Shown piece by piece: positions 28-8,188 of a stretch of 64,000 nt of DNA. The stretch's first letter is position 1. Each line of letters opens with the position of its first letter. Position numbers and translations under genes: made by a program. The notes beneath the pieces are model-generated. The model was not told where the DNA came from and ran no database searches. It was given only the letters and a program-made list of their open reading frames with translations. Origin of the DNA: Bacteroidales bacterium (GTDB lineage Bacteria; Bacteroidota; Bacteroidia; Bacteroidales; WCHB1-69); contig JAKSMC010000006.1 in assembly GCA_024400835.1 (NCBI GenBank), positions 1 to 64,000 of the forward strand, read 5' to 3'.

Positions 28-171
28 TCAGCCCGCATTTTGACCTATACGCCTCAAACTCACACCTTCCCCGTACACCTCCCCGTCGCTCTCCTGGCCG
101 TTGAAGAAGTACCGATAACCGCCATTAGCGGAACGGAGGAAACTTTTCTGGTATGTGGTTGTGGAAATCAT
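28..171 (-). pseudogene. Truncated orphan RHS-core module (47 codons)
   Basis: The first 36 codons match the start of the four intact modules downstream: MISTTTY, then an ANGGYRYFFNGQESDG block and a VYGEG motif. After EGVSL the frame loses the usual core (the FW-VDP segment and the closing LxGLE) and stops at 28-30 after six residues that match nothing else here. There is no room for a toxin domain. The frame could open further upstream (from 261), but all sister modules start at this ATG, so I take 171. It is either a decayed module or the scar of a recombination or deletion event; what lies beyond position 1 cannot be seen. Confidence 0.7.
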
Positions 172-217
172 GGCGCGAAGATAAGTTTTTTTAGTGTTAG
201 AAAGACTATGGGATAGA

Positions 218-463
218 TCATTGGGGCGACAACAAAAACGGCATTCCTGGATAATAATCATAAGTGTGCCCGCCGCCTTGAATTAAACAGAGTACTAGGG
301 CAACAATGGCGATGATCAAAATGATTATCATGATTACCCTGGAGCTCTTATTCTTTGCTTCTTGAGGTGAAGTACTCACTCTATTGGCACGAGGACGCTT
401 CTGTGCGTGTGATTTTCTTTGGCGTGATTTCGGCTTGACGCTTTTGTTTCGTTTTTTGTTCAT
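218..463 (-). CDS. Small single-pass membrane protein, candidate immunity for the 460-1356 module
   Basis: An 81-residue protein with a very basic N-terminal third (many Lys/Arg), then one hydrophobic segment (about residues 44-61, rich in Ile/Val/Leu), and a short C-terminal tail. The start codon overlaps the stop of the upstream RHS module by 4 nt, so the two are almost certainly translationally coupled. Toxin followed at once by a small membrane protein is the classic layout of polymorphic toxin systems, so I infer immunity function. No family is recognised. The charge pattern predicts an N-in, C-out topology, with the tail in the periplasm. Confidence 0.6.
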   Translation of the reverse strand: MNKKRNKSVKPKSRQRKSHAQKRPRANRVSTSPQEAKNKSSRVIMIIILIIAIVALVLCLIQGGGHTYDYYPGMPFLLSPQ

Positions 464-1356
464 GGTTCTGCAGGTCTTATTTCGGGAATATTTTCTGTTT
501 TTATCTCTACCTTATAAGGCTGTTCATCACCAAACAACATAATTCTCTCAAGATAATTCTGAGGCGACGGTCCTAATATGTCCATCTCTCGTCCTGCTTT
601 TTCCGCATCCATCCAGAACTGTTGCCAAGATTGAGGCATATAAGCTGGAAAATCCATTTTCGTGTCAGGCAATTCATTGAAAATAGTTCGGAATTGATTT
701 TCATACTCCAATTGCATTATGTCGAATTGGTATTGGTAACGATAATCTGCAAAACCCATCTGAACCCTGTAACTCTCCCTGATTCCAGAAGTGGTGTTGA
801 CTCTATTCTGGTACATGGTTTTATAGGCATCGCATAATTCCAGAAGGAGCGTTACTCGTTGAGCATAAAAATTATCTTTTGTCATGGAGATGTTGTTGCC
901 TTGCGGGGAATGATAATTGAATTTATATTGCGCTAAAGGAGTTGACACTGTTGGTCTATAACCAGTAGATGTTCCGATGCGGTATGTGTATGTTGTTGTG
1001 ATCCGAAGTGATGGAAGTCTGATGTCTTCGATTCGTGCATAATTATACTGTCTCAATCCAATTGCAGGTCTTCTAACAGTTCTTGTAGGACGAGCTATTT
1101 CTAATCCCTCAAACTCCAAGTATCCTATAGGCGAGTTCTCCGCAAACGCATACGTGCTGTTCCAGGGGAACTTCCCCACCAGAGGATCCACGCTCCAAAA
1201 CCGCCCGGTGCGGGTGTCGTGCATGCGGTACTCGAAGGCGTGCAAACCGCCTTCCCCGTACACCTCCCCGTCGCTCTCCTGTCCGTTGAAGAAGTACCGA
1301 TAACCGCCATTAGCGGAACGGAGAGAACTTTGCTGATATGTGGTTGTGGAAATCAT
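460..1356 (-). CDS. Orphan RHS-core/toxin module, unknown C-terminal domain
   Basis: A 298-residue protein. Residues 1-85 are the RHS-repeat-associated core: NGGYRYFFNGQE, a MHDTRTGRFWSVDPL motif, and the closing segment that usually ends DxxGLE (here FEGLE). It lacks the YD repeats and any N-terminal delivery region of a full RHS protein. Residues 90-298 are unique to this module and rich in Tyr, Gln and Arg. I see no recognisable nuclease, ADP-ribosyltransferase or protease motif. It is followed by an overlapping small membrane protein (218-463). By architecture it is a displaced RHS C-terminal toxin cassette; toxicity is inferred, not shown. Confidence 0.7.
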   Translation of the reverse strand: MISTTTYQQSSLRSANGGYRYFFNGQESDGEVYGEGGLHAFEYRMHDTRTGRFWSVDPLVGKFPWNSTYAFAENSPIGYLEFEGLEIARPTRTVRRPAIGLRQYNYARIEDIRLPSLRITTTYTYRIGTSTGYRPTVSTPLAQYKFNYHSPQGNNISMTKDNFYAQRVTLLLELCDAYKTMYQNRVNTTSGIRESYRVQMGFADYRYQYQFDIMQLEYENQFRTIFNELPDTKMDFPAYMPQSWQQFWMDAEKAGREMDILGPSPQNYLERIMLFGDEQPYKVEIKTENIPEIRPAEP

Positions 1357-1387
1357 GGCGCGAAGATAGGATTTTTAGGGATAAGAT

Positions 1388-1753
1388 TCATTTCCTCACC
1401 AAGATGATAGGAAAAGCGATTCCAATTATACCACTCATACAGAGTAGCAGTGTTCTATAAGGTCGGATGGTAAACGAACCAATTAGGAAAGAAAGAATTA
1501 TTACGCACATGATGGACAAGGCAAGATATATGTATTTGTTGAGTGTAGCAGGAACTATCCCTATCGCCATTGTCAAAATAAAAAAAACAAGTAATGCCAA
1601 CCGCAAGGTAATTCCCCAAAATATATCTATGGAATGTACATGAAAAAACAATCGTGCCATCCATTCTCCTATGATATAGACGGAGAAGGCTAATGCAACG
1701 GAAAACAGTATTTGCAATACAAAGCATTTACCTGAGGTAATCGTTCTTTTCAT
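1388..1753 (-). CDS. Four-helix membrane protein, candidate immunity for the 1728-2642 module
   Basis: About 121 residues, almost entirely hydrophobic, with four predicted transmembrane segments. I start it at the internal ATG at 1753 (MKRTITSG). That gives a 26-nt overlap with the upstream RHS module, like the overlaps in the other modules. An upstream in-frame ATG at 1819 would extend it 22 residues into the toxin gene. No family is recognised. Polytopic immunity proteins usually guard against toxins acting in or across the cytoplasmic membrane, which hints at, but does not prove, the target of the partner. Confidence 0.6.
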   Translation of the reverse strand: MKRTITSGKCFVLQILFSVALAFSVYIIGEWMARLFFHVHSIDIFWGITLRLALLVFFILTMAIGIVPATLNKYIYLALSIMCVIILSFLIGSFTIRPYRTLLLCMSGIIGIAFPIILVRK

Positions 1754-2642
1754 CTTTGCTAATCTGAGTTTTAAGATTGTCGGGGGAATAAGTAGTTCTT
1801 TTAAGTTCCTTTTTGTCACTTATGAGAAGACGTTTTGTCACCTTAAGGGAATAACGTTTTGAAGCCCACAGCGCACCTCGTAATATTAAGTAATTGTCGT
1901 AAGTGTTCGAATTGTCTGTTTTTCCTCCAAATAACTTTCCATCTCCGTATTCCTTCCCCTTTTGAACAGTTTTTCTAATTGAAGATCCTTTTTCACCAGT
2001 TAACAGGTAGTTGTCGGTGAAAAAATCTACTGCATATGCAATTTGGCCGATCACATCAGACCAATAAGGATAATTTCCAACTGTCACCAAGTAATAGCCA
2101 TCCGCACCGTCTTTTGACATTTTCCAATCCCCAGCTCCTCCTTGTCTATATGATATCATTGGTCTATTCACTTCTGCAAAATCTGCAACTTGTTGCCAAG
2201 TAAAATGTTTCAGGTTGGGATTAGTCGACAAATCTTTTGCCCTCTCTATAAGTGGCATAAAATTGTCTGCCAAGGGTTCAAACCACTGAATTCCTTTGTC
2301 ATAAAGTTGTTTGGCAGTTATAGCTGTTGTCTTTGTTTTTTTATCATCTATAGAAAATAGAAAAGTTCCATCTTTTGTCGTTACGCGAAGCGTGTCTCCT
2401 CTCAGATCCACAAACAACACCGGGTTACCCGCAAAGCACGCATACGGACTTTCATACTCCTTGAAAACGGGATCCACATTCCACCTCCTGCCCAGCCGGC
2501 TGTCGTACTGCCAGAATTCCGCAGTCAAACTCACCCCCTCTCCAAGCACCTCATTATCAGCCTCCTGTCCGTTGAAGAAGTACCGATAACCCCCATTAGC
2601 GGAACGGAAGGATTGTGGCCGATATGTGGTTGTGGAAATCAT
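1728..2642 (-). CDS. Orphan RHS-core/toxin module, unknown C-terminal domain
   Basis: A 304-residue protein that starts like its sisters but has the most divergent RHS core in the array: NGQEADNEVLGEG, a YDSRLGRRWNVDPV motif and a VDLRGD closing segment. The unique part (about residues 85-304) is mixed alpha/beta, with a Gly/Tyr/Asp-rich stretch near residues 165-190 and another (FGGKTDNSNTYDNY) near 245-260, then a basic tail. I considered polymorphic toxin family 44 for this part, but the resemblance is too weak to call. The core divergence suggests this module entered the array from a different RHS parent, or earlier than the others. Confidence 0.7.
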   Translation of the reverse strand: MISTTTYRPQSFRSANGGYRYFFNGQEADNEVLGEGVSLTAEFWQYDSRLGRRWNVDPVFKEYESPYACFAGNPVLFVDLRGDTLRVTTKDGTFLFSIDDKKTKTTAITAKQLYDKGIQWFEPLADNFMPLIERAKDLSTNPNLKHFTWQQVADFAEVNRPMISYRQGGAGDWKMSKDGADGYYLVTVGNYPYWSDVIGQIAYAVDFFTDNYLLTGEKGSSIRKTVQKGKEYGDGKLFGGKTDNSNTYDNYLILRGALWASKRYSLKVTKRLLISDKKELKRTTYSPDNLKTQISKDEKNDYLR

Positions 2643-2660
2643 GGCGCGAAGATAGGATTT

Positions 2661-3746
2661 TTAAAAATCAAAAATGACTTTCGGGAACTTTTGTTTCAAA
2701 TAATCCTTGTTATATTGAGAAAAAGTCGTGCTATAATCGTATTTGACAGTCTCACCTGTAAACACATTAACTTTGTACATGTTTGGCCTGTATGCTTCTT
2801 CAGGACAATCAAAACACCTTTCCCATCCTGCCAAAACCACCGTGCTGTCGGAGAGCCAATAGCCATCGTCAATGCTCGCCGTGGGTCCGAGAAAAATGAT
2901 TGGAAGTCTTTGATGACGTGCAACGTCTATGACATATATTTGGATGTCCACATCTAATTCCGCGTATGTTTTAGCACCTTTCTTGCTTAAGATGAGATTA
3001 TACGAATACAAGTCCAAGGCGTAAGAACCGGTTGGTGAGTAAGATATCTTGTCCCGATAATCAGAGAAATATTTTTCCGAAATGTCAAATTCTTCCCAAT
3101 CGGTGGATAGCGAGGATGTATAACTACGAACGAGCGTAAAACTGTCTGCTTTCAGTTCTCTTTCCCACGAATTGAGCCATAAACTGCAATGCTGACGCAA
3201 AGTACTGGATAGCGAGTCGCCCATCACAGCGATTTTTTGTTTGAACTTGTTTTGAATGAATTTTTTCCAACACGCAAGGTCTTTGTCTTTGCGTTCCCTA
3301 ACCCAGGCTTCAACACGATTGGGACTGTATGCCATTAATTCAATCGCATTCGTCATAGTGATATTATAAAGCATTATATTGACTTGCCAACTGCATTGTT
3401 CATCATCCAACAGATCGACCAACTGTGGCAGATATTCTATGGCATCAGCTTGAGAACAAAAGTTCCGAACAAGCGAGTCATCAGCAAAAGCATAATAAGC
3501 GATTTCCCATCCATCTGCTGATGGTGCAACGAGTGACGGCGCACTGACAGAGAACGTGAATTTCTCTGGAGCATACGATTTAACACGTTCGATCATCGTT
3601 GAAAAATCAATTTGATGAAGAGAAGATGCTTTATTATTTGATAACTGACATTTCACCTGCTGAGAAACCAATAGTAACATAACAGTGAAAAGTGTTACCC
3701 GTATCGCCGTGACAAATGTATTAGTCCTTTTCATTTTCATTTGCAT
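2661..3746 (-). CDS. Exported 361-residue protein, possible second immunity factor
   Basis: It begins with a basic stretch and a hydrophobic segment (residues 10-30) ending near VKCQ, which I read as a signal peptide with cleavage around the Cys/Gln; the sequence is not a good lipobox. The mature part is soluble and rich in aromatic and acidic residues, with no catalytic motif I recognise. It lies 28 nt downstream of the two-helix protein at 3774-4046 and 19 nt upstream of the next module's start. Its position makes it part of the toxin-immunity array. Either the 4015-4884 toxin has two immunity genes, or this is the survivor of a lost module. Confidence 0.6.
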   Translation of the reverse strand: MQMKMKRTNTFVTAIRVTLFTVMLLLVSQQVKCQLSNNKASSLHQIDFSTMIERVKSYAPEKFTFSVSAPSLVAPSADGWEIAYYAFADDSLVRNFCSQADAIEYLPQLVDLLDDEQCSWQVNIMLYNITMTNAIELMAYSPNRVEAWVRERKDKDLACWKKFIQNKFKQKIAVMGDSLSSTLRQHCSLWLNSWERELKADSFTLVRSYTSSLSTDWEEFDISEKYFSDYRDKISYSPTGSYALDLYSYNLILSKKGAKTYAELDVDIQIYVIDVARHQRLPIIFLGPTASIDDGYWLSDSTVVLAGWERCFDCPEEAYRPNMYKVNVFTGETVKYDYSTTFSQYNKDYLKQKFPKVIFDF

Positions 3747-3773
3747 TTTATTTTGATGGAATGTCCAAGTTTA

Positions 3774-4046
3774 TCATTCATCCTTTGAAGGTGGTAATGG
3801 CAACGTGAGTAAAAGACCTCCTCCTAATGAAAAAACTAGTATTTCCGGTAAATGCTCGAAGACATATTGCCACGTATTAGGTTTGGGCTTGTAATACGTA
3901 GGGTTTCTTCCTTTTCCAGCTGACCCTGTTTTATAATCAGCAAGCGTAAGGGCAAGAATAAATAAAAAAGAATAAAAATAGTATTTGAGAAAACGGTAAA
4001 ACCTTTTTCTTCGTTTATTTTGGATTATTGGGTTTTTCATTGTCAT
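3774..4046 (-). CDS. Two-helix membrane protein, candidate immunity for the 4015-4884 module
   Basis: A 90-residue protein with a very basic N-terminus (KRRKRF), a first hydrophobic segment near residues 20-37 and a second near 68-82. The start overlaps the upstream toxin by 32 nt; a second ATG two codons later is an equally good start. No family is recognised. Its place directly after an RHS module and its coupling by overlap support an immunity role at the inner membrane. The predicted topology is helical hairpin, both ends cytoplasmic. Confidence 0.6.
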   Translation of the reverse strand: MTMKNPIIQNKRRKRFYRFLKYYFYSFLFILALTLADYKTGSAGKGRNPTYYKPKPNTWQYVFEHLPEILVFSLGGGLLLTLPLPPSKDE

Positions 4047-4884
4047 TTGTATTTTGAGGAGATGTATTTGTTTCAGAACTTCTTTTATTGTCTAAAGGAT
4101 TACCTTTCCCCCAAGTATCAAACAAAAATTGGAACAAAATGCTATATGTACCTATCATGGGGTCAGAGGGACTCACGTCAGGAGACCATTCTTGTTTATG
4201 CCCTACATAGCCTAAACCTATTCCGACAGCTCTTTTTCCCCAAGGGTTGTTGTACGCATTCCAACCTAATGAGTATAGCTGTACTCCACCTCTCACCACA
4301 TACGGCAGAGTATTTGACCAGACGTATGTTCCAAACGAAACAGTGGTGAAGACAAACCCTCCTGTTGCTGTGGCGCGAACTATTGGATCAAGGTATATGT
4401 ACGGACCAAAATAGCCCGCTGACTCTGCCCATGCTATCTCATATTCTGAAGGAGCTGGGCGAATCTCACCTTGATAAGGTATCTTTTGTTTTGTTGATTG
4501 CTGGAAAATAGTTTTTTTCAATTCTACTTCCGGCAGTGTCTTCGGTTTCACATAGGTGGACTGCCTTGCATTAAAGTAAGAAAATGGGACTCCATTCGAC
4601 ATGTATCCAACTGTATTTTCGATTCCTTCCAAACCGTCCACATCAACGAGCAGTATTGGCGAGCAGCTGGCGAACTGAAACGGTGTCAGCATCGGATAGT
4701 CTTTCGCTAATGGATCAACACTCCAGAACCTTGCAATACGAGTGTCATACATTCGGAATCCGTAGTTCTGAAAACCTCCCTCTCCATACACCTCCCCGTC
4801 ACTCTCCTGCCCGTTGAAGAAGTACCGATAACCCCCATTGGCGGAACGGGAGGATTGTGGCCGATATGTGGTTGTGGAAATCAT
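4015..4884 (-). CDS. Orphan RHS-core/toxin module with hydrophobic C-terminal domain
   Basis: A 289-residue protein with an RHS core (residues 1-86: NGGYRYFFNGQE, a MYDTRIARFWSVDPL motif, closing VDGLEG). The unique region has a moderately hydrophobic stretch around residues 165-225 rich in Gly, Val, Tyr and Phe, then a polar Asn/Pro/Lys tail. This pattern could belong to a membrane-inserting toxin, but no pore-forming family is recognisable. Two exported or membrane genes follow it (3774-4046 and 2661-3746). Function as a toxin is inferred from architecture alone. Confidence 0.7.
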   Translation of the reverse strand: MISTTTYRPQSSRSANGGYRYFFNGQESDGEVYGEGGFQNYGFRMYDTRIARFWSVDPLAKDYPMLTPFQFASCSPILLVDVDGLEGIENTVGYMSNGVPFSYFNARQSTYVKPKTLPEVELKKTIFQQSTKQKIPYQGEIRPAPSEYEIAWAESAGYFGPYIYLDPIVRATATGGFVFTTVSFGTYVWSNTLPYVVRGGVQLYSLGWNAYNNPWGKRAVGIGLGYVGHKQEWSPDVSPSDPMIGTYSILFQFLFDTWGKGNPLDNKRSSETNTSPQNTNDNEKPNNPK

Positions 4885-4911
4885 GGCGCGAAGATAAGAT
4901 TTTTTGGGTTA

Positions 4912-5565
4912 TTAATGGTTTTTGACATATTTCAAGATCCGATTCCAGTCATATGTCAAGTTGTGCGGAAATACAAAAAACTGTTGGATGGAATCATGAT
5001 GGGATTCGACCACATAACTATATTTTTCACCAGAAAAGCAGTAGTAGTTCTCTCTTTTATACAACGCCTTGTCTTTTATATAACAGATAGGGTCCCCAAC
5101 CTGAAAAGAAGCAATGGGCAGAACAAACGGTTTGTCCTTGACGTGAATGATCCTGATTTTTTGTGTGGTGTCCGAACTTCCCCATGAATTATTCTTTCGA
5201 TAGGATACAATAATGTCCGCAACTATAGGTGGCATAGAATTTGAACGAGAGTCTAATACAATATAAAAGCCGTATGACAAGTTCTCACTACTGTCATCAT
5301 CAAAGATTTCAGGTCTGTTGCATCGTCCAGAGGTTGTCCATTCGACATCATAATATGCCCACAAACTGTCAATAGACATCAAGTATGGCAAAGACACTCG
5401 TGCTTTGTCCTCAAGGCCACAATCCGCTATTATTCCTCCGAGAGTGTCTGATGCCGACTGATAGAGGTCTTGATTATTAGACGAACCGCATGACATCAAC
5501 AATAAAAGTTTAAGATAAACTATCGCTTTAAATAAATCATATTTATTGATCTTCTTGTGTTTCAT
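4912..5565 (-). CDS. Lipoprotein, candidate immunity for the caspase-like RHS module
   Basis: A 217-residue protein with a basic N-terminus, a short hydrophobic core and a lipobox-like LLLMSC followed by Gly-Ser-Ser, so it should be lipidated at Cys26 and face the periplasm. The rest is soluble with no known motif. It overlaps the stop of the 5543-6466 toxin gene by 23 nt. If the partner really is a protease, a periplasmic lipoprotein would act as an inhibitor met by the toxin during entry or in the periplasm. This is inference from gene order and localisation. Confidence 0.65.
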   Translation of the reverse strand: MKHKKINKYDLFKAIVYLKLLLLMSCGSSNNQDLYQSASDTLGGIIADCGLEDKARVSLPYLMSIDSLWAYYDVEWTTSGRCNRPEIFDDDSSENLSYGFYIVLDSRSNSMPPIVADIIVSYRKNNSWGSSDTTQKIRIIHVKDKPFVLPIASFQVGDPICYIKDKALYKRENYYCFSGEKYSYVVESHHDSIQQFFVFPHNLTYDWNRILKYVKNH

Positions 5566-6466
5566 CTGGAAATTCAGTTTTTCTTGTGCCTTGGATTATC
5601 CCATCCATTGTATTGAAAATATTACCAACATCTTCGGGTTCGCTCCCTTTTGTGAATTTAAAGAAAGACCCCTTTTTATAATTTCTCATCTGGTAAGTCA
5701 TCTCCTCACCTCGCTTTTCTGTCCTTGGAGCAACACCGCCATCCCCTTCTACATCACGTCCTGCATAAACAGTGGCTCCTGTAATGTTGGCTAATTCTTG
5801 AGCGAAAGAAGTAACACGCGTGGAACCGTTCCCATCATCCACATCCCAGTCTGACCCAGCATTACATGCTGTAATTAGAATACATGCATCCTTGCTGAAA
5901 ACGATATCGCCATTTTCAACAGCTGTTTTTAGATAAGCTAAATCAGAAATCTCCATCCGTCCTGTTGGATTACCGTGGCCATAAACTACTCCGTATGATC
6001 CATGTCCCCATATTGCAACAAAACCAATAGTATGCTCGGGATCTTCGACCGTAGCTCTCTTTAATAGACCGCATAATTGCTCTATCTCATTTGGAGAACC
6101 TTGCTTGTCTGCTGCGACAATAGTTTCGACAATAGCTGATTCATATATGGATTTCAATAAAGATTTCCGATAATTTACGTCTCCGCCAAGGCTGACACCG
6201 ACAACAGCCTCCAGCCCCTCCAGTTCCAAGAACCCTATCGGCGAGTTCTCCGCAAACGCATACGCACTGTTCCACGGGAACTTCCCTGCCAATGGATCCA
6301 CGCTCCAGAACCGCCCGATACGGGTGTCGTGCATACGGTACTCAAAGGCGTGCAAACTCCCTTCTCCATACACCTCTCCGTCGCTCTCCTGTCCGTTGAA
6401 GAAGTGCCGATAACCCCCATTAGCGGAACGGGAGGATTGTGGCCGATATGTGGTTGTGGAAATCAT
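5543..6466 (-). CDS. Orphan RHS-core module with caspase-like (CHAT/clan CD) protease domain
   Basis: A 307-residue protein. Residues 1-86 are the RHS core (NGQESDGEVYGEG, MHDTRIGRFWSVDPL, LEGLE). Residues about 88-290 form a separate domain: a hydrophobic strand ending FVAIWGHGSYG (His155), then a strand ending ILITACNAGSD (Cys201), then GATVYAGRD. A 'hydrophobic strand-HG' followed 40-60 residues later by 'hydrophobic strand-x-C-x-x-G' is the catalytic dyad signature of caspase-like peptidases (CHAT, C80, C14 types). I therefore infer a Cys protease toxin carried on an RHS cassette; I cannot place it in one subfamily. The coupled lipoprotein 4912-5565 is the likely immunity factor. Confidence 0.7.
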   Translation of the reverse strand: MISTTTYRPQSSRSANGGYRHFFNGQESDGEVYGEGSLHAFEYRMHDTRIGRFWSVDPLAGKFPWNSAYAFAENSPIGFLELEGLEAVVGVSLGGDVNYRKSLLKSIYESAIVETIVAADKQGSPNEIEQLCGLLKRATVEDPEHTIGFVAIWGHGSYGVVYGHGNPTGRMEISDLAYLKTAVENGDIVFSKDACILITACNAGSDWDVDDGNGSTRVTSFAQELANITGATVYAGRDVEGDGGVAPRTEKRGEEMTYQMRNYKKGSFFKFTKGSEPEDVGNIFNTMDGIIQGTRKTEFPDETQEDQ

Positions 6467-6512
6467 GGCGCGAAGATTTGGATTTTCGTAGAATTAAGTA
6501 TGGAAGTAACTG

Positions 6513-6785
6513 CTATTTGTGTTTTTTCGGACATTTTAGCAACAGAATAACCTCAATGACAAATGTGACAGAACCAAACAAAATAGCGATTTCGTTGTAA
6601 TGCATGTCCCACTTTAGTTGTTGTCCATAGACATTGATATGCACCCATTCACACGTGTTTTGATGGACATCAAACGAATACGATAAAATATTACTAACCA
6701 AAATGAGTATAGACAATACGAAAAAACAGACGCAAAAGACTATTCCAACGATTAATAAGACGCGACTATTCTGATTTTTGTTCAT
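6513..6785 (-). CDS. Two-helix membrane protein, orphan immunity gene
   Basis: A 90-residue protein with hydrophobic segments at about residues 9-33 and 65-84 and a short polar loop between them. It resembles the other small membrane immunity candidates in size and position but has no RHS module upstream: the IS element ends 23 nt before its start codon. In the remaining 42 nt (6807-6766) an open frame of 13 codons ends in TAG inside this gene, a 20-nt overlap like those in the intact modules. I read this as the last codons of a lost toxin. Confidence 0.6.
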   Translation of the reverse strand: MNKNQNSRVLLIVGIVFCVCFFVLSILILVSNILSYSFDVHQNTCEWVHINVYGQQLKWDMHYNEIAILFGSVTFVIEVILLLKCPKKHK

Positions 6786-6855: not shown

Positions 6856-7542
6856 TCAAGCAGCATTTGAGGTACGGATTAAATTTTTATTGTTCTCGTA
6901 TTTACGGTAAGGGATCTCGTTGTCAACGCCCTGATGGTGCCGTTCAGTATTGTAATATTTCATAAACCACTCGATGCCTTTTCGTAATTCGGTAGCGTTA
7001 TCACAAGGATTAAGGTAGATGTACTCTCGCTTGATGGTTCGCCAGAATCGCTCGATCCAGATGTTGTCCTTCGCGCGTCCGCGGCCATCCATGCTGACCT
7101 TTATCTCTTTCCCGCAGGCTTCGGTCCAAAGCCCGCTCGTGTACTGGCTTCCCTGGTCGGAGTTTATGATTCCAGGGTGGCCGAATCGCGCCACTGCATC
7201 GTGGAGGACTTCCACGGACTCCGACGCGTCGAGGGTGTTGCTGAGCTTCCATGACATAATACGGCGGCTGTACACGTCTATGCGCTTCAGTCTGCGCACC
7301 CGCTTCAGGTTGAAGCTCATTCCAAGATCTGCCAGATGCTGCTGCATCGTCCTTGCGCCCGATGTGGGATGGTCAAGATAGAAACTCTCCATGGCTCTCA
7401 TTGCCTTCACATTCTCCGGATTCTCTGCCTTCTTCCTATAATACACTGCGTTGTTGCTTATGCCAAGCAACTTGCATTGTTCCTTTATGCTTAGGTTTTC
7501 ATGCCTTTTTTTCACAAGACTCCTGATGCTTATATCAGACAT
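6856..7542 (-). pseudogene. IS3-family transposase OrfB with internal deletion of the first catalytic Asp
   Basis: A 228-residue frame, where OrfB proteins are usually about 270-290. The N-terminal HTH_21-like part (LSIKEQCKLLGISNNAVYYR) and the C-terminal rve part are present: INSDQGSQYTS supplies the second Asp and DNIWIERFWRT the Glu of the DDE triad. After FNLKRVRRLKR the sequence jumps directly to IDVYSRRIMSW. The normal segment between, about 50 residues with the W-x-x-D-I-T-Y motif and the first Asp, is missing. The frame is intact, so a protein may be made, but it should be catalytically dead. The start overlaps orfA by 13 nt. Confidence 0.85.
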
Positions 7543-7838
7543 AACCGCTTGCAGGCATCCTCGAAAAAATCCCGTTCTATGGTCAGTTCTCCGACCTTCT
7601 CCCGTAATTTACGTATCTCTTCCCCTTGGGCATCACCCTTCTCGCACTTTGTCGCGGACGTCTTGCCGCCGAACAGCTTGTCCATATTCTTCAACGCCTC
7701 TTGCTTCCATGAGGAAATCTGATTGGGACTGACCTCGAACTCCTTCGAGAGTTCCGCCAGCGTCTTTTGCTCTCGTATCGCTGCCAAAGCCACCGTCGCT
7801 TTGAACTTGTCTGTGAACTTTCTTCTTTTTTGTGTCAT
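7530..7838 (-). CDS. IS3-family transposase OrfA (helix-turn-helix)
   Basis: About 102 residues from the ATG at 7838 (MTQKRRKFTDKFK); an upstream ATG at 7898 is unlikely because it falls in the terminal repeat. Residues 5-50 are the HTH_Tnp_1 domain (LAELSKEFEVSPNQISSWK), followed by a Lys/Glu-rich leucine-zipper-like helix (residues 65-95) used for OrfA/OrfAB multimerisation. A TACTTTTG box on the minus strand (7862-7869) fits a Bacteroidota promoter inside the right end. OrfB starts in a different frame before the stop, as expected for programmed frameshifting or coupling in this family. Confidence 0.85.
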   Translation of the reverse strand: MTQKRRKFTDKFKATVALAAIREQKTLAELSKEFEVSPNQISSWKQEALKNMDKLFGGKTSATKCEKGDAQGEEIRKLREKVGELTIERDFFEDACKRLCLI

Positions 7839-7910
7839 CTTTTTTACTTTGATATGTACCGCAAAAGTACTTTTTTTCACTTTAACAACCTCTCCCAATT
7901 TTGGGGTACA

Positions 7911-8104: not shown

Positions 8105-8115
8105 GATTTTCTTTG

Positions 8116-8188
8116 TGTCTCCGCAGGGATTCGAACCCTGGACCCATTGATTAAGAGTCAATTGCTCTACCAGCTGAGCTACGGGGAC
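8116..8188 (-). tRNA. tRNA-Lys (CTT anticodon)
   Basis: 73 nt folding into a full cloverleaf: D stem GCTC/GAGC, anticodon arm ATTGA-CTCTTAA-TCAAT with CTT at positions 34-36, 5-nt variable loop, T arm CAGGG-TTCGAAT-CCCTG. The acceptor stem GTCCCCG/CGGAGAC has one C4-A69 mismatch. The discriminator is A and CCA is not encoded. A TATTTTTG box 23 nt upstream (8211-8218, minus) is its likely promoter. Confidence 0.92.

Follow-up and report, generated by a model that had tools for sequence, protein, structure and literature searches.

A head-to-tail array of Rhs-core stubs, variable tips and small genes with a shared start in a Bacteroidales genome

The first 64,000 nucleotides of contig C56 (JAKSMC010000006.1) of a Bacteroidales bacterium, here called the window, contain on the minus strand, between positions 28 and 6785, an array of modules; in each intact one a stub of the Rhs core is joined to a tip of its own and is followed by one or two small genes. 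The array is real, it is widespread in the genus, and it is a variant of the orphan Rhs tip modules. The reading that we prefer, and in which we place about even confidence, is that its modules are separately expressed tip-immunity cassettes with leaderless starts, which would serve the cell both as a shield and as a mobile store of tips.

According to this reading, every unit would be transcribed and translated alone from the block TATCTTCGCGCC, which is joined directly to the ATG. The block would act as a -7 promoter box, and if it is a promoter, transcription would start at or next to the ATG. The small protein, a putative immunity protein predicted to be exported or membrane-bound, would neutralise the tip and thereby shield the cell; the tip would act in the envelope, outside the cytoplasm, and would itself stay unexported in the cytoplasm. 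Recombination in the shared leader and core would gain, lose and reassort modules, and the same recombination would move tips to and from the full-length rhs genes of relatives. In this way the cassettes likely guard the cell against toxins that its relatives make. Self-expression from an own leaderless start is the best-supported mechanism, as judged from sequence conservation.

Four intact modules (M1 to M4), one truncated module (M5) and one orphan small gene follow each other head to tail, which confirms a preliminary description of the window. The features, all on the minus strand, are the following.

6856..7898, IS3-like insertion sequence at the array boundary, with transposase frames at 7530-7898 and 6856-7542 (Pfam HTH_Tnp_1, rve and rve_3)
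6513..6785, orphan immunity-like small membrane gene of 90 residues with hydrophobic segments
6467..6478, leader of M1, a one-base variant, AATCTTCGCGCC (from the sequence and the site listing)
5543..6466, M1, Rhs-core stub with a caspase-fold tip (tip at about 5543-6202)
4912..5565, M1 partner, predicted lipoprotein of 217 residues with a lipobox-like N terminus
4885..4896, leader of M2, TATCTTCGCGCC, exact over the 15-mer that includes the ATG
4015..4884, M2, Rhs-core stub with tip (TIGR03696, 37.8 bits)
3774..4046, M2 partner, predicted membrane protein of 90 residues, 43% identical to the gene behind a full-length rhs of genome G009
2661..3746, second small gene after M2, 361 residues, predicted to be exported
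2643..2654, leader of M3, TATCTTCGCGCC, exact over the same 15-mer
1728..2642, M3, Rhs-core stub with tip (TIGR03696, 21.5 bits, below the cut-off)
1388..1753, M3 partner, multi-pass membrane protein with its ATG at 1753 and four hydrophobic segments
1357..1368, leader of M4, TATCTTCGCGCC, exact over the same 15-mer
460..1356, M4, Rhs-core stub with tip (TIGR03696, 34.9 bits; homologues)
218..463, M4 partner, single-pass membrane protein of 81 residues, by hydrophobicity
172..183, leader of M5, TATCTTCGCGCC, exact over the same 15-mer
28..171, M5, truncated module of 47 residues, read from the sequence

The modules start with ATG at 6466, 4884, 2642, 1356 and 171, and a stretch of DNA that they share begins about 20 nucleotides 5' of each ATG. 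It is 127 nucleotides long in five copies (80-94% identity to the reference copy) and 271 nucleotides long in three (70 and 86%). The profile TIGR03696 (Rhs_assc_core) matches all four intact modules, above the cut-off in M1, M2 and M4, and there is no NCBIfam match in M5. The tip genes make up four of the ten complete genes of the array, all of which are co-oriented. The common leader and ATG described earlier for every intact module hold for the shared block and the ATG, but M1 has the one-base variant of the leader, and M2 is followed by two small genes. The second of these, at 2661-3746, looks as if it were recombinant, since its halves match different loci in other species with a switch near 3235-3238. 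A tRNA-Lys gene at 8115-8188, just past the IS3-like element at the array edge, may mark an integration site.

The evidence that carries the preferred reading lies first of all in the leader, an untranslated block of 12 nucleotides that abuts the ATG. In the own genome (2,999,540 bases in 60 contigs, 98% complete) the exact 15-mer TATCTTCGCGCCATG occurs ten times, and all ten occurrences are within two arrays, one on C56 and one on C34. The cores of these arrays, with the motif YFFNGQE, form a family A; those of the other contigs, with FSAKERD, form a family B. Among 40 genomes of the genus, the own included, the 15-mer is present in 21, and a reversed control pattern occurs in none. For a comparison of the leader with its surroundings, sites were chosen through the core and not through the leader: there are 59 distinct family-A cores, 39 of them have an ATG exactly 16 codons upstream, and 38 are left when a longer flank is required. 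The mean level of pairwise identity among these 38 modules, of which copies from one genome are not independent, is 0.787 for the 12 nucleotides before the ATG, 0.699 for codons 2-16 and 0.694 for the next 102 nucleotides, 0.521 for positions -21 to -13, and 0.29-0.31 for the flank beyond. The non-coding leader is, in other words, more conserved than the coding core. The exact 12-mer is found in 22 of the 38 modules, and TA..TT[TC]G is located at -12 in 26 of them. The leader resembles the -7 element of Bacteroidota promoters, for which the consensus TAnnTTTG is given in PMC7366714, and it also opens into small genes that stand alone; a leaderless start of the modules is predicted from these two properties.

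When leader sites with at most two mismatches are collected, 60 distinct sites are obtained, and 29 of these lack the usual GGYRYFFNG segment within 160 nucleotides, although some retain other pieces of a module. Eight of the 29 open in frame, by reading, into a small exported protein (L013:4746, L100, L105, L109, L117, L128 on both strands, and L136:11591), and at two loci, L120 and L128, leaders stand back to back. If the block were nothing but the 5' remnant of a dead piece of rhs, leaders in front of lone small genes would be hard to account for. Separately from this, core-less leaders or module remnants are repeatedly seen near a gene starting MKYPIGIQTFA, which we take to be ATPase-like (L091, L127, L131, L134 and L141), and a gene pair to which we presumptively give the names DUF3990/DUF3791, from resemblance, occurs among modules in at least three genomes (L013:10633-11402, L136 and L139).

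In the genus as a whole TIGR03696 has matches in 37 of the 40 genomes, and the family-A block is found in 20. One relative, G022, shows how such arrays may change. There the IS3 end, the orphan gene and the leader junction (window 7176-6288) run straight into M2 (window 4905-4211) at 95% identity, so that, compared with the window, exactly M1 and its partner are absent. The homology at the junction is a mosaic over leader and core, from which homologous recombination is inferred. As the same junction is found in a contig of another species, with one module fewer, the modules are unlikely to be artefacts of assembly, an outcome that the preliminary description had named as one that would undo it.

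Selection on the proteins points in the same direction. Ratios of nonsynonymous to synonymous substitution rates (dN/dS, NG86) were calculated against other species. For the tips they are 0.08 in M1 and 0.20 in M2 (0.51 in a second M2 comparison, at 98% identity and with few changes), 0.10 and 0.11 on C34, and 0.11, 0.12 and 0.34 in family B. For the small genes they range from 0.17 to 0.77, with 0.22-0.25 for the M1 partner and 0.44 for the M4 partner. The lone small genes have values of 0.19-0.27, where the other copy in the comparison giving 0.19 contains a stop; the orphan small gene of the window has a homologue in G001 (0.23) and is unchanged in G022. Values below 1 mean that tips and small genes are maintained as proteins wherever they can be compared.

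The tips themselves are diverse. That of M1 has a Tce1-like caspase fold; its residues H155 and C201 are invariant across 29 aligned proteins and are, we infer, the catalytic pair. Tce1 is a Pseudomonas aeruginosa protein of the type VI secretion system (T6SS), seen in complex with Hcp3 (9qpe), whereas the M1 tip is fused to an Rhs-core stub. The M2 tip is also found on a full-length rhs of G009 (63% identity over 248 residues), and the M3 tip has relatives among LysM-linked and Pseudomonas proteins some 282 residues long (39-48% identity over 59-79% of the query). The structure model of the M4 tip is unusable, with a mean predicted local distance difference test score of 45.7. The small genes are mostly predicted to encode exported or membrane-bound proteins.

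Does the genome contain a parent gene for these modules? The absence of a full-length rhs from the window, noted earlier, is borne out by profile and body searches, and the genome-wide search then called for has been run and found none, with an outcome that is limited by contig ends. The shared DNA block has 12 matches in the assembly, all on C56 and C34. TIGR03696 (E up to 10) has 32, on C3, C5, C12, C14, C34, C42, C56 and C58, the longest frame being of 341 residues. A motif scan of the fetched stretches gives 34 core frames, 11 of family A and 23 of family B. Every one of them is either closed by an in-frame stop 5' of its core or runs off a contig start; none is a long rhs, and most have full module length. 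The body of an A-type full-length rhs (from G009), used as query, has no match in the own genome and matches, some of them fragments, in five of the 40 genomes. The body of a B-type full-length rhs (a frame of 3,109 residues in G020) has matches in 22 of the 40, and in the own genome three fragments of 49-68 residues, which adjoin family-B head modules on the opposite strand. RHS_repeat (E up to 10) has only weak matches in the own genome; the single frame over the cut-off was rejected as an rhs, as it reads as a secreted protein of 429 residues without an Rhs tip. No full-length rhs is thus found in this 3.0 Mb assembly, where each of the two family-A arrays, on C56 and on C34, starts at the end of a contig.

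Some observations concern family B alone. The fragments above, at C42:24279-24479, C12:88587-88754 and C14:2879-3025, are relics of full-length rhs bodies. Five family-B head modules with MNQGFTLTSSTTFF or a near variant (L043, L044, L045, L046 and L047, on C3, C12, C14, C42 and C58) share about 240-600 bp, including an upstream part with the box TATCTTTGC, and of the 23 core frames in this family 13 lack an ATG before the core, where they have only TTG.

Several points weigh against the preferred reading. The leader matches eight or fewer of its 12 bases in seven of the 38 modules, TATCTTCG differs from TAnnTTTG by one mismatch, and within the box the leader is conserved to the same degree at the n positions as at the consensus ones. 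In the loci that were read, TA..TTTG is mostly located 18-24 nucleotides from the ATG, and the leaderless spacing is at background; leaderless mRNAs are described as rare in B. thetaiotaomicron (PMC7366714). Several comparisons of small genes show weak constraint (0.53 and 0.77 for the M2 partner), four to five of the compared copies have one stop each, and constraint is mostly stronger on the tips than on the small genes, which a pure immunity shield does not predict. This last point speaks against such a shield and would be compatible with tips that are used, either where they are or once transferred. The dependence among copies from one genome has been mentioned, the G022 comparison is a single case in which the contig ends inside a module, and both family-A arrays touch contig ends, where a hidden rhs gene is possible. 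M1, M3 and M4 have 417, 679 and 264 homologues among metagenome proteins, of which the best 120 each are listed. In the 240 listed for M1 and M3 the core motif is present in 151 proteins, 115 of which begin at exactly the residue seen in the window, an agreement that is supportive only, because the search favours short proteins.

The alternative that survives best, possible although we would not expect it, is that the modules are displaced rhs ends, silent until they recombine onto a full-length rhs as in Salmonella, with a recipient that is hidden in a gap of the assembly or belongs to other cells. The anatomy is that of known orphan modules. In the orphan rhs-CT/rhsI of Salmonella LT2, as described in PMC3967940, a partial Rhs core likewise precedes a variable tip, behind which lies a small partner gene, and orphan tips are likewise met on the full-length Rhs of other strains; the same tips as here end long rhs proteins in other species. 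Tandem tip-immunity arrays are also reported for the orphan cdiA-CT/cdiI of E. coli EC93 and EC869, where an orphan immunity protein is made in EC93 (PMC3150448). The contig ends and the mostly stronger constraint on tips fit this alternative as well: the window starts at a contig end, so that the region beyond position 1 is not directly readable. However, the orphan rhs-CT/rhsI modules of enterobacteria usually follow a main rhs gene and, typically if not by definition, lack translation initiation signals in that account (PMC3967940), while here no main rhs is found in the assembly, within the limit set by the contig end, and a conserved ATG is preceded by a shared non-coding leader. The array also differs from the cdiA-CT/cdiI arrays in that each of its units has a predicted promoter of its own, and the leader precedes lone small genes too. 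The stand-alone reservoir suggested in the preliminary description is retained as to stand-alone units with a standardised start, and not as a settled reservoir. Of the two fates suggested for the units, expression as they are is now the better supported, through the conserved leader, its place before lone small genes and dN/dS below 1; recombination into a distant rhs has no visible recipient in the same genome, where no full-length gene was found, although the same tips end long rhs frames elsewhere.

It is unlikely that the short core-tip proteins are themselves weapons, released or delivered by some other route. They have their own start, many short proteins are found among their homologues, and family-A tips have low dN/dS though the compared copies also lie in short frames. 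But none of 27 tip proteins has an N-terminal hydrophobic segment (those of family B without ATG were examined from the core onward), and PF05943, which may miss the Bacteroidota subtype, detects no T6SS sheath in the 40 genomes. The Rhs shell of the effectors known so far is, moreover, much longer than the stub.

A further explanation, to which we assign very little probability, takes the leader for the site of a site-specific recombinase and the array for an integron- or rAID-like cassette array. The rAID loci, as described in PMC12247911, resemble the array in belonging to Bacteroidales, in their co-oriented short genes, their conserved intergenic motif (for which the leader TATCTTCGCGCC would be the counterpart) and their defence logic; their defining features there are a tyrosine recombinase and orphan immunity genes in an array, whereas the present array shows no recombinase and keeps toxin-like tips. 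Its visible upstream side holds the IS3-like element; a search of the own genome with the recombinase that is linked to arrays in relatives gave no match, and no search was made with the reference recombinase of rAID. In the relatives a head module stands directly downstream of an XerC/D-like tyrosine recombinase (L130/L131 in G009:C13, L205 in G037:C65, L129 in G028:C3 and L133 in G029:C56), but these head modules lack the leader. The recombinase is found in seven of the 40 genomes (one match weak, two beside HsdS-like genes), against 21 for the leader, and the G022 junction is a mosaic, not one fixed crossover. That the modules are decaying relics of former rhs loci is hardly credible, since dN/dS is below 1 in every right-frame comparison with a value and most core frames have full length, even if rhs-body relics lie near three family-B head modules and truncated modules occur here and elsewhere.

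The recombinase loci deserve a remark of their own. Opposite the head module and recombinase, G009 and G037 have four genes in a row that share one direction. The fourth is an A-type rhs of 2,260 residues in G009 and, in G037, an rhs frame of 1,806 residues that runs off the contig end; the cores of the head module and of the rhs in G009 are inverted repeats of each other (92.8% over 138 bp). G020 and G033 have relatives of the recombinase with 55-60% identity (L206 in G020:C51 and L207 in G033:C38), which lie beside genes read as HsdS, in G020 with Methylase_S by Pfam; inversion of hsdS by an invertase is known, and these are probably such loci. From the recombinase, the inverted core repeat and the HsdS kinship it is a fair guess that species of the G009/G037 type, and not the own genome, have an inversion system for Rhs tips. 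Combined with the preferred reading, this leads to a bolder picture, which we hold to be doubtful: a rumen Bacteroidales genus would have made displaced Rhs tips into tip-immunity cassettes that are autonomous, self-promoted and leaderless and work without a parent rhs. These would be a multi-toxin shield under continuous expression, with tips that are not exported and stay loaded for transfer, and the recombinase with the inverted head module beside a full-length rhs in sister species would form an Rhs shufflon, in which inversion loads new tips.

For orphan cdiA-CT modules, the reason why a toxin fragment that has no start persists beside the immunity gene is described as unclear (PMC3150448). 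The fragments considered here have a conserved start and leader, purifying selection acts on those that can be compared, and a parent gene was not found, which makes the use of orphan tips in place directly testable. They would also add a mobile, probably antibacterial family of tips, with caspase-like, Ntox44, JAB and M91 peptidase and amidase members, from an uncultured rumen group.

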